Positions 13,519 through 29,137 of a stretch of DNA of 64,000 nucleotides are shown in pieces. How positions within the stretch are numbered: position 1 is the first letter of the stretch; each line of letters opens with the position of its first letter. The position numbers and the translations under genes were made by a program. The notes under the pieces are model-generated. The model searched no databases. It was not told where the DNA came from and was given only the letters and a program-made list of their open reading frames with translations. Source of the DNA: Bacteroidota bacterium (lineage in GTDB: Bacteria > Bacteroidota > Bacteroidia > Bacteroidales > JAAUTT01); NCBI GenBank assembly GCA_030706405.1, contig JAUZOO010000001.1, positions 329,762-393,761 of the forward strand, in the 5' to 3' direction.

Positions 13519-14193
13519 TTCGCTGATGCGTTCCAGCCTCTCTTCGTCGGCAATTTCGATGATGGGGCCGTTAATTTTAATAATTCCGTCCTTGCGTAAG
13601 TCCGACAGCGTGCGGATTACGTTTTCTACCGTCATGCCAATGTACTCGGCCATTTCCTTGCGCGACACCGGAAGCTCGAACGAGCTGCTGTTATAAACCT
13701 TACGCGAAAAATACAGCAGAATGTAGGCAATGCGTCCAAACAAACGTTTCTGTTTTACTTCCAGAAAATCTACCAGAATATTATCCGTGGCCTTGTTAAT
13801 CTTTTCCATGATGCTCATGGCAAATTTCCCGTTTTGGGAGGCAATGGATTTAACCTCGTCGAGGTTGATGTTGCAGGTTACCGAATCTTCGAGGGCGGCA
13901 ACCGAATATTTATAGTATTTCTCCGAGAAAATGCTTAACAAGCTTACAAAATCGAGCGGAAGTGCAAAACAGATAATTTGCTGTTTATCGTTTGATCCGT
14001 TACGATACAATTTCACCAAACCGCTTTTAAGGTAAATAAACTCCTGAATTTCATCGCCCTCCTGGATAATGACCTCGCCCTTTTTATAGTGAAACTGGGT
14101 TTTGCGGGTACATATCGATTCTATTTCCGAGTTACTAACATTCTCGAAAAACAGCGACCGCAGTTCACATCCTTCGCAGTTACAAGTATTCAT
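13510..14193 (-). CDS. Fnr-like Crp/Fnr-family transcriptional regulator
   Basis: About 228 residues. It opens with a Cys cluster (MNTCNCEGCELRS; C4, C6, C9), followed by a cyclic-nucleotide-binding-type beta-roll, a dimer helix and a Crp-type helix-turn-helix (SRKEMAEYIGMTVENVIRTLSDL). The N-terminal cysteines plus one in VTCNINL could ligate an oxygen-labile [4Fe-4S] cluster as in Fnr (inference). It is divergent from the sulfide-oxidation-type operon, and two Fnr-box-like palindromes lie in the shared intergenic region. Met codons at 14232 and 14199 are alternative starts. Confidence 0.88.
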   Translation of the reverse strand: MNTCNCEGCELRSLFFENVSNSEIESICTRKTQFHYKKGEVIIQEGDEIQEFIYLKSGLVKLYRNGSNDKQQIICFALPLDFVSLLSIFSEKYYKYSVAALEDSVTCNINLDEVKSIASQNGKFAMSIMEKINKATDNILVDFLEVKQKRLFGRIAYILLYFSRKVYNSSSFELPVSRKEMAEYIGMTVENVIRTLSDLRKDGIIKINGPIIEIADEERLERISELS

Positions 14194-23385: not shown

Positions 23386-23407
23386 GAAACGTTACATTTA
23401 ACAGCAC

Positions 23408-23613
23408 TGTTGGGCGAAGTTTTTACTTCGTCCGACTATCTTTGGAAGCATCTGCTTCCATTGCTTTTGGGCAGACTATAAATAGCGAATGCTACCGAAG
23501 ATAGACCGACGTTGCGAACTAAGCGGAGCGGTATCTCGAACGAAAGTGAGAAATGCAACGCCGAACAACTTCAACTTACAGGTTCTACCAAGCTACGGAG
23601 AACAGGGGAATTT
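23408..23613 (+). repeat. Structured ~210-bp repeat, copy 1
   Basis: First of three near-identical direct copies. It begins TGTTGGGCGAAGTTTTTACT and ends near GAGAACAGGGG. Inside are a GGCGAAGT/ACTTCGTC hairpin, a GGAAGC/GCTTCC hairpin, and outer arms CGTCCGACTATCTT and AAGATAGACCGACG that pair with few mismatches. No convincing protein is encoded. It sits between corA and the lectin gene. Confidence 0.92.
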
Positions 23614-25099: not shown

Positions 25100-25110
25100 T
25101 CATTAAAAAC

Positions 25111-25323
25111 CCCCCGTGTTGGGCGAAGTTTTTACTTCGTCCGACTATCTTTGGAAGCCTCTACTTCCACTGCATTTAGGCAGACTATAAATAGCGAATG
25201 CTACTAAAGATAGACCGACGTTGCGAACTAAGCGGAGCGGTCTCTCGAACGAAAGTGAGAAATGCAACGCCGAACAACTTCGACTTACAGGTTTTACCAA
25301 GCTATGGAGAACAGGGGAATTTT
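25111..25323 (+). repeat. Structured ~210-bp repeat, copy 2
   Basis: Second direct copy. It shares with copy 3 the start CCCCCGTGTTGGGCG and is almost identical to copies 1 and 3 through GAGAACAGGGG. Differences cluster in the GGAAGC hairpin loop. It lies between the RAYT remnant and the 3' end of the truncated sensor gene. Confidence 0.92.
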
Positions 25324-26564: not shown

Positions 26565-26605
26565 CGAATTATTTCAACGTTGCAATTTTAAGTTTTAGCG
26601 AAGAG

Positions 26606-26815
26606 CCCCCGTGTTGGGCGAAGTTTTTACTTCGTCCGACTATCTTTGGAAGCATCTGCTTCCATTGCATTTTGACAAACTATAAATAGCGAATGCTACC
26701 GAAGATAGACCGACGTTGCGAACTAAGCGGAGCGGTCTCTCGAACGAAAGTGAGAAATGCAACGCCGAACAACTTCGATTTACAGGTTTTACCAAACTAC
26801 GGAGAACAGGGGATT
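26606..26815 (+). repeat. Structured ~210-bp repeat, copy 3
   Basis: Third direct copy, matching copy 2 from CCCCCGTGTTGGGCG to ACAGGGGA with scattered substitutions. It fills most of the 379-bp gap between the divergent sensor and Cys-rich genes; the rest of the gap shows no gene. Confidence 0.92.
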
Positions 26816-26882
26816 TTGTTTATCTTTTGAAATAACAAAACTGGAAAAGTTATTACTTTTAACAAACCAAAAATACCCTCTT

Positions 26883-27765: not shown

Positions 27766-27868
27766 GCTGACGCGCGTTTGAAACGCGTGCCCAAATTTAA
27801 CCATCGTTTGCAACGAGATTGCAAAGCAAAAATGGTATTAGCCGCACGCGTCACAGACGCGCGCCAGC
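27766..27868. repeat. BIME-like pair of REP hairpins
   Basis: Two 25-nt arms, 27766-27790 (GCTGACGCGCG...) and 27844-27868 (...GCGCGCCAGC), are imperfect inverted repeats of each other, and each also folds alone. Between them, TTTGCAA (27808-27814) and TTGCAAA form a small inner hairpin. This is the head-to-head arrangement of bacterial interspersed mosaic elements mobilised by RAYT transposases. Confidence 0.75.
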
Positions 27869-27924: not shown

Positions 27925-28266
27925 TCCCACCCCGGGACTGTACATTCAAAACCTACGGAAACGAATCCCAGCTCGGGACGGCCTCCCAAAATTCAAAACA
28001 CCAAATCCAGATCCGGGATATGGCTTCTAAAAACTCAGGCACGCCGTCCCAGGTTGGGATTATACTTCTAAAAAGTCAGGCAGCAGATCCCGCGCCGGGA
28101 TTTGGTGTTTTGAAACCAGGGCATTAAATCCCGGCGCGGGATGACGCTTCTAAAAATTCAGGTAAGGAATCCCGATGCGGGACGACACTTCTAAAACTTC
28201 TGGCGGCATATTTCCCATGATAAATTGCCATAAAAATTTTTTGACAGCATATTTCCCGCGGGAAAT
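27925..28266. repeat. Array of nine ~41-bp units, each with a small TCCC/GGGA hairpin
   Basis: Hairpins of form TCCCR-NNN-YGGGA begin at 27925, 27966, 28006, 28047, 28088, 28129 and 28170. Two diverged units begin at 28213 and 28254. Steps are 41, 40, 41, 41, 41, 41, 43 and 41 bp. The stem is kept while the 3-nt loop differs in every unit (ccc, gct, atc, ggt, cgc, gcg, atg). Between hairpins, units 3, 4, 6 and 7 share a second block, CTTCTAAAA followed by TCAGG in three of them; others are more diverged. The last unit is a perfect 16-bp palindrome at 28251-28266. It ends 124 bp before the DUF6261 gene. Confidence 0.9.
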
Positions 28267-28390: not shown

Positions 28391-29137
28391 ATGACTAAAA
28401 TTGAAGTTTTAAGCCTTCACAGTTTTCGCAACGACGACCATCACCAGTTTATGAGCTATGTGGACAAGTTAATCTTAACGCACCAAACCACCGAACTGGG
28501 TGTTCAGGGCCTGTACCTCGATTTCAAAACATTGCTCGACAAGGAATCGTCGATTAATAGTTTGGTACAAACCAGCATCAAGTCCAAAATGATTGTTGAT
28601 CTCGACTCGCAGCGCGATAATACCTGGAGCGCTATCAACACCAAGGTAAAAGCATCGTTGTTAAGCCCGGTGGCCGATGAGGCCGAAAGTGCCCGCATTT
28701 TAAAAATCGTCCTCGATAAGCATGGCGATGTCCGTAACCGTTCGTACCACGAGGAAAGCTCGGCCATTTCGGGTTTGGTGAGAGATTTGCAGAACAGCCC
28801 TAATGCAACCCATGCACAAATAATTGGCATCACCAGTTGGGTTGAATCCTTAAAAACTCAAAACGAAAATTTTATTACTATCCTCGACGAACGCAGTGAG
28901 GAATATAGCGAGCGTCCGGACAGCAACGTTCGCCTAATCCGCGAACAGATTGACCCGATTTATCAGCAGATGGTTGAAAAAATAAACGCTTCCATTGTGC
29001 TCGAACTTGCCAAACCAGCAGTCGAAAGTTTTGTGTTAAAGCTCAACGAAAAAATAGCTTATTTCAAAACTACCATTGCCTCCCGCCAGGCTCGCAGCAA
29101 GGACAAAGCCGCCGAAACCTCAACAGAAAAAGCATAA
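28391..29137 (+). CDS. DUF6261-family protein
   Basis: 248 residues, soluble and almost wholly helical by composition, with no signal peptide. It matches my recollection of DUF6261, a Bacteroidota family of unknown function, in length and in the opening KIEVLSLHSFRNDDHHQFMSYVDKLI. A later SYHEESSAISGLVRDLQ segment and a long C-terminal helix ending in a basic, charged tail (RQARSKDKAAETSTEKA) are also seen. It has its own terminator and lies directly downstream of the hairpin array. The 124-bp leader is AT-rich and holds no other gene. An array-linked nucleic-acid-binding role is speculation. Confidence 0.75.
   Translation: MTKIEVLSLHSFRNDDHHQFMSYVDKLILTHQTTELGVQGLYLDFKTLLDKESSINSLVQTSIKSKMIVDLDSQRDNTWSAINTKVKASLLSPVADEAESARILKIVLDKHGDVRNRSYHEESSAISGLVRDLQNSPNATHAQIIGITSWVESLKTQNENFITILDERSEEYSERPDSNVRLIREQIDPIYQQMVEKINASIVLELAKPAVESFVLKLNEKIAYFKTTIASRQARSKDKAAETSTEKA

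Follow-up and report, generated by a model that had tools for sequence, protein, structure and literature searches.

Helically phased palindrome arrays upstream of DUF6261 genes: a possible two-part module of Bacteroidota

The window analysed here, a 64-kb stretch of DNA from a member of the Bacteroidales, contains a row of small palindromes repeated at intervals of about 41 bp, and raises the question of what such an array does and what might read it. A preliminary description had noted seven TCCCR-NNN-YGGGA units at steps of 40-41 bp, with two diverged units continuing the phase, invariant stems, a different loop in every unit and a second conserved block. This view of the array is essentially right, with corrections. 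Exact copies of TCCCRNNNYGGGA start on the + strand at 27925, 27966, 28047, 28088, 28129 and 28170, giving six units within 27925-28182, but unit 3 (TCCAGATCCGGGA, 28006-28018, by sequence reading) differs by a single base; the steps between the starts of units 1-7 are indeed 41, 40, 41, 41, 41 and 41 bp. The window holds seven copies of TCCCRNNNYGGGA against 0.19 expected, and none of 100 shuffles held seven or more. One further site, at 13827, is unrelated to the array.

The palindromes, termed dyad A and assigned no strand, are, by pattern count, TCCCACCCCGGGA (unit 1, 27925-27937), TCCCAGCTCGGGA (unit 2, 27966-27978), TCCCAGGTTGGGA (unit 4, 28047-28059), TCCCGCGCCGGGA (unit 5, 28088-28100), TCCCGGCGCGGGA (unit 6, 28129-28141) and TCCCGATGCGGGA (unit 7, 28170-28182). 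Their outer four pairs are constant in six of the seven units, but the stems are not invariant throughout, as in units 1 and 2 the inner R-Y position reads A...C, which does not pair on the + strand. The seven 3-nt loops (CCC, GCT, ATC, GGT, CGC, GCG and ATG) are all distinct, as described. Units 8 (ATTTCCCATGATAAAT, 28210-28225, imperfect) and 9 (ATTTCCCGCGGGAAAT, 28251-28266), also without strand, are palindromes with a different stem (ATTTCCC..GGGAAAT) that hold the 41-bp spacing, and the stem of unit 9 recurs elsewhere in this genome, in arrays of contigs C21 and C15. The second conserved block, block B (CTTCTAAAA..TCAGG, by pattern match on the + strand), is clear in four units, as CTTCTAAAAACTCAGG (28024-28039), CTTCTAAAAAGTCAGG (28065-28080), CTTCTAAAAATTCAGG (28147-28162) and, with one mismatch, at 28188-28203, but units 1, 2 and 5 have other sequence in its place. 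Just 5' of the array lies a long inverted repeat (27766-27868; 25-bp arms, 84% complementary, 53 bp between them) with TCCC and GGGA outside its arms, perhaps another palindromic element. The window also contains three copies of a 217-nt direct repeat (23397-23613, 25106-25322 and 26601-26817, about 1.5-1.7 kb apart), one of which is matched by the other two at 91% and 94% identity.

The key to the array is the adjacent gene, which the preliminary description overlooked. This gene, directly 3' of the array on the + strand (28391-29137, 248 aa), matches the DUF6261 profile (PF19775, E 4.8e-39), and its product has a helical predicted model. Profile search placed DUF6261 genes at 73 sites in 14 of 149 genomes of the window's order, with up to 18 per genome. 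Seventy were taken (of the others one had stops, one was under the cut-off and one was weak), with L020, L055 and L125 added, and removal of the duplicates L180 and L205 and of N-masked L175 brought 75 rows to 72. An array was called where self-alignment of the 700 bp upstream scored at least 25 at a lag of 38-44, periods being compared within 24-65-bp bands.

The resulting association is very strong. An array of 38-44-bp period lies upstream of 51 of the 72 distinct DUF6261 genes, against 7 of 238 control genes (the controls being 44 window genes and 194 genes of pattern-search loci), and still of 48 of 68 when the four genes picked for their array (L020, L055, L125 and the window's own) are set aside. 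In the raw alignments 53 of 75 rows reached the threshold at this lag and 1-3 of 75 in other lag bands, and among the controls 2-8 did so in other bands. Tandem Repeats Finder, run for periods of 20-200, found an array in 41 of 72 DUF6261 upstreams and 4 of 238 controls. A held-out set of six genes, taken from two additional genomes and from a plasmid record of Prevotella nigrescens, gave five with an upstream array; in this set the array of L211 lies more than 400 bp upstream of DUF6261. Conversely, 15 of the 114 pattern loci listed, found without reference to DUF6261, have the gene adjoining the array; fourteen of these arrays lie 5' of the gene, and that of L050 lies 3'; an array lies on the 3' side of 1 of 69 DUF6261 genes. 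Twenty-one of the 72 genes fall below the threshold; ORF starts were assigned mechanically, and L020 and L164 count as misses because the predicted ORF extends into the array. In the window's genome all five DUF6261 genes are preceded by an array (self-alignment scores 33-132).

The spacing is narrow. The modal period of 59 arrays, 12 of which came from a pattern search that itself selected for spacing, is 41 bp in 27, 42 in 24, 43 in four, 40 in three and 45 in one, so that 58 of 59 lie at 40-43 bp; the mean of 41.4 bp behaves as about four turns of B-DNA, the figure suggested earlier from the window. Period tracks protein kinship weakly (p 0.04). Of 38 strong arrays set against a column-permutation null, 20 beat it for a first dyad and 11 for a second, the null standing in 18 and 27, respectively. 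The second dyad falls at 0.46-0.50 of the period in 16 of the 38 arrays against 4.8 expected, and units thus tend to pair two palindromes at a distance of two turns of the helix.

The mismatches within dyads bear on the level at which this symmetry is kept. Folding of a gene-sense RNA would tolerate G.T over A.C, and folding of the other strand the converse. In 202 good units there are 39 G.T and 41 A.C mismatches (70 and 72 unfiltered), and in the window's genome 12 and 11; a one-strand G.U preference suggested at first by the window vanished with the larger counts. The symmetry is therefore maintained at the DNA level or by a strand-blind process, and the absence of strand bias is more in keeping with symmetry of the DNA than with an RNA hairpin.

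The arrays of the window's genome show what is kept within a unit. Block B (GCCTGA.TTTTT.GAAG) is common, with mismatches, to seven of them, two linked to DUF6261 (the window and L135) and five without the gene in the loci examined (C6:47k, C6:9.7k, C15:442k, C16:307k and C21:107k); the genome's second six-unit array is on contig C6. In 25 of 36 units the centre of dyad A precedes block B by 13-14 bp. The stems of dyad A include, with compensation, TCCC..GGGA, TTTCCC..GGGAAA, TTTCCT..AGGAAA, CTCCAC..GTGGAG and TACA..TGTA; in C16:307k the stem changes from one unit to the next. Thus block B retains sequence and dyad A mainly symmetry, bearing out on a genome scale the stem upkeep proposed from the window. 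The variation within C16:307k is not predicted by strict sequence-specific dimer binding. Palindromes that change within a single array speak against a simple sequence-specific operator; structure, such as a cruciform, may instead be recognised, or template-switch correction may be at work.

Our tentatively favoured explanation is that one module has two parts: the phased array, which acts in cis as DNA, and DUF6261, a protein that would bind the array, regulate its own gene and act in trans. The array would belong to an acquired module and would offer, on one face of the DNA, a row of binding sites to its cognate protein, which is probably DUF6261. Each unit of about 41-42 bp (four turns) would have its two dyads separated by about 20.5 bp (two turns), so that consecutive sites come to lie on the same side of the helix. 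The DUF6261 product, most simply as an oligomer, could bind these sites cooperatively at the DNA level and so, we propose, control its own promoter just downstream. It may further act in trans on other copies of its array elsewhere in the genome, recognition being specific to each gene. Tandem duplication would rebuild the array quickly with symmetry and phase retained, and the module would have been gained horizontally and then amplified, presumably to the benefit of the host or of the element itself. A cooperative, one-face binding array agrees with the narrow period, with the pairing of dyads, with the placement on one side of the gene and with the absence of strand bias.

The protein itself is predicted by AlphaFold2, from 14 sequences, to be helical (pLDDT 86.0, pTM 0.52), and is mildly acidic (median pI 6.1 in 73 proteins). 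No recognised DNA-binding domain was found in it, the model showing helices only, and Foldseek gave no match to the model in PDB or BFVD at E 1e-3. The best VIA-align Z of 10.4 is at a level flagged as generic for helical bundles, and the best PDB sequence match (E 0.13) was likewise set aside. In Pfam, DUF6261 is matched by 14 of 14 members and any other family by at most two of 14; the 14 families listed up to E 0.1 do not include the toxins ToxN, CptN or TenpN. Matches to 12 PHROGs families (best E 6.9e-5, a tail protein) and to six models of a defence library (best CARF_HEPN, E 7.4e-5, and LeoA, 1.2e-4) involve one of 14 members each and are taken as chance between helical proteins. Among the papers searched, one alone, on daptomycin resistance in Streptococcus oralis, names DUF6261. 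In a phage-labelled record that looks like bacterial DNA (MT837725.1, 3305-4903) the gene lies beside an HU-like gene, with methylase-like genes near; an HU-type partner, prompted by this record, was not recurrent (3 loci).

Similar arrays proved widespread, many of them in Bacteroidota. A two-unit pattern occurs in 2 of 99 relatives, one being the window's genome, and a three-unit pattern at no fewer than 114 stretches across the genome collection; among the matches listed, 69 are named Bacteroidota, including a few duplicates, and the others are Verrucomicrobia, deltaproteobacteria and the like. These loci were selected for the TCCC stem and a 39-43-bp step, and because each slice spans no more than 8 kb, a DUF6261 gene past the slice edge would go undetected; many arrays have no DUF6261 in the slice examined. 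In a phylum sample the three-unit pattern was found in 1 of 148 genomes, the window's own (reversed control 0), so this stem is rare. It occurs at one locus in viral contigs, and the window array itself has no match in phages or plasmids. Outside the stem, the sequence of the loci read varies genome by genome.

Beyond the Bacteroidota, Verrucomicrobiales RYN_621 (L030, L032, L034, L057, L109, L111 and L118) and Puniceicoccales (L058, L089, L113 and L114) have several 41-42-bp arrays per genome with the same stem, homology extending past the array and no DUF6261 in the slices examined; such non-Bacteroidota arrays may have an independent origin or a different partner. Long TCCCAACTTGGGA arrays of about 39-bp period and up to 24 units in Cupriavidus (L022, L065 and L088) are possibly unrelated.

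This spread of copies invites a somewhat doubtful alternative, that of a mobile element in which an autonomous copy carries the DUF6261 gene and the arrays lacking it descend from that copy as non-autonomous elements, mobilised by DUF6261 itself or by a palindrome-reading host transposase, with REPIN-RAYT-like logic and other parts. In its favour, 17 of 20 arrays without DUF6261 in the slice, from 10 genomes, match the DUF6261-linked array of their own genome (E up to 1e-3), with identities of 73-90% in six genomes, 68-72% in one and short matches in three; three unlinked arrays of Parabacteroides A77 do not match the linked one. Twelve of the 20 have at least 1 kb of sequence on both sides. 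The linked array's best match lies in its own genome in six of 10 cases (L036, L037, L073, L074, L079 and L122) and in another genome in four (L020, L055, L064 and L131). The stem is common to these loci by choice, because all were taken with one stem pattern, but the spacers were not so chosen.

Occurrence is also patchy, as a mobile element would predict: DUF6261 is present in 3 of 148 genomes of the phylum sample, in addition to the 14 of 149 in the order. No match to the window DUF6261 was found in the 1.5 kb upstream of ileS in 11 relatives, including four congeners (a twelfth relative, G005, yielded no locus), and in one congener (G001) a genome-wide search found none. No array lies beside kdsB in four relatives or pdxA in five, but gene order is not conserved there, so these are not clean empty sites, and neither an exact empty site nor a target duplication was obtained. 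From this patchy distribution, horizontal acquisition is likely. Mobility as such is less well matched: in 39 arrays without adjoining DUF6261, terminal inverted repeats do not exceed chance (two with a match of at least 10 bp within 120 bp, about 1.4 expected) and none has an IS5-like motif on both sides; DUF6261 matches no transposase family; and a Y1 transposase (PF01797) is present in seven of 10 DUF6261-bearing genomes searched and without match in G000 (the window's), G045 and G096.

The arrays are mostly private to each gene. At E 1e-3, arrays of different DUF6261 genes match in none of the 102 pairs within one genome and in two of the 1123 remaining pairs. Among 14 hand-picked pairs of close proteins, five, including the window and L135, have clearly similar arrays (z 7.7 to 27.3) and nine have unrelated ones, so co-evolution of protein and array is not supported. 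One of the nine is L156/L163, whose proteins are 83% identical; these two share long, near-identical Gly/Ser-rich tails. The flanks of L149 and L201 are similar (z 20.9) and their arrays unrelated (z -0.2). Arrays thus often change faster than the gene and its flank. Such turnover would suit a further reading, which we regard as unlikely, in which the helically phased palindromes form an identity tag, private to one DUF6261 and read by it, the pair being a new element for incompatibility, self/non-self discrimination or defence acting on DNA. With the array rewritten much more quickly than its protein, every paralogue, of which a genome has up to 18, would keep a tag of its own, and the other arrays would be marked chromosomal sites.

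A tandem array of near-40-nt units directly 5' of one gene, with compensated stems and a sequence mostly private to that gene, is also what would be expected of a type III toxin-antitoxin-like module, in which the array is transcribed to repeat RNA hairpins that bind or inhibit the DUF6261 protein. The intergenic region, on a stretch that includes the inverted repeat at 27766-27868, does fold more stably than its 20 shuffled versions, whichever strand is taken (z -8.0 and -8.4). However, the equal G.T and A.C counts on the gene-sense strand, the absence of any Rfam match in the window at gathering scores and of a toxin family among the Pfam matches, and the many arrays without an adjoining DUF6261 make this explanation quite unlikely. 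The mismatch counts likewise leave the earlier suggestion of small structured RNAs without support. In four copies (L125, L147, L149 and L201), moreover, a promoter-like TAnnTTTG box separates the array from the gene, at 48-51 bp before the ATG. L160 and L201 have a similar box and flank when set side by side; in L079 and L122 a box of this kind seems, by eye, to lie on the far side of the array, and most copies have no box of this type. A promoter consensus scan of 53 arrays gave no consistent position (left flank, two sense and seven antisense; array-to-gene stretch, five sense and three antisense).

Template switching would yield compensated stems without strand bias. A neutral minisatellite, formed by tandem duplication and template-switch correction of quasi-palindromes and with no function, would therefore account for the stems and for the fast turnover, the nearness of DUF6261 being hitch-hiking. 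It leaves unexplained both the 5' placement (51 of 72 genes against 7 of 238, and 1 of 69 on the 3' side) and the narrow period across unrelated sequences, and we judge it very unlikely. A guide-RNA array (TIGR- or CRISPR-like) with the variable segments as spacers is scarcely credible, as the two constant and two variable segments per unit seen in the window give way in many arrays to near-identical units that leave no spacer, the variable part is held to palindromy in the window's genome, the window array is without match in phages or plasmids, and the three window proteins nearest the array include no nuclease or Tas-type protein, DUF6261 alone being above a curated cut-off.

DUF6261 is a family without known function, and the phased array that precedes about 70% of the genes tested provides its first testable function. 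The pairing may also account for 41-bp repeat arrays in Bacteroidota. That period, and often symmetry, are kept as sequence is lost between proteins up to 83% identical raises the question of what drives such fast rewriting.

No published description of an array-DUF6261 module was found by titles and abstracts, nor did a term search of PMC5771137 give a match, and the array with its gene is apparently an undescribed bacterial module. The nearest described repeat, judged from part of its description, is the 41-nt array of Porphyromonas MITEPgRS. In that part, MITE464/MITEPgRS of Porphyromonas gingivalis has 41-nt tandem direct repeats inside a MITE, in about 10-20 copies, with IS5-type terminal inverted repeats, and a partner gene, dyads and phasing are not mentioned; the BrickBuilt MITE of the same species has a 23-nt unit and a leader and tail with terminal inverted repeats (PMC4596501). 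Both are thus alike in part: MITEPgRS in its occurrence in Bacteroidales, its 41-nt direct repeats and its several copies per genome, and BrickBuilt as an intergenic tandem-repeat element of many copies. The arrays here differ from the first in having no terminal inverted repeats beyond chance, and from the second in unit length and in its leader and tail with terminal inverted repeats.

In REPIN-RAYT systems a gene, the RAYT, which is a Y1 transposase, is flanked by palindromic repeats with copies elsewhere in the genome. The present module resembles these systems (PMC3733652) in its gene, palindromic repeats and further copies, but has a phased array, changing palindromes and a helical protein. 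The lack of a Y1 match in three of the 10 genomes means that this transposase is not required. Type III toxin-antitoxin loci carry tandem repeats of about 40 bp, of gene-specific sequence, upstream of one gene; the 5' tandem array is shared, but DUF6261 has no Pfam toxin family, the dyads no RNA-strand bias and many arrays no gene. TIGR systems have an adjacent Tas protein with a Nop-type domain, unlike the three window proteins nearest the array, and CRISPR arrays have identical repeats and unrelated spacers, in contrast to whole units that repeat or vary as palindromes; this anatomy agrees with the earlier distinction from CRISPR, REP and attC elements.

In plasmid iterons and parC-type centromeres, helically phased repeated sites adjoin the gene of the protein that binds them, and the sites diverge between relatives. 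DUF6261 matched no replication or partition family, and its genes number up to 18 per genome, mostly on contigs not known as plasmids. The array nevertheless shares with iterons and centromeres its helically phased repeats, its position beside a gene and its divergence between relatives, with DUF6261 as the probable binding protein.
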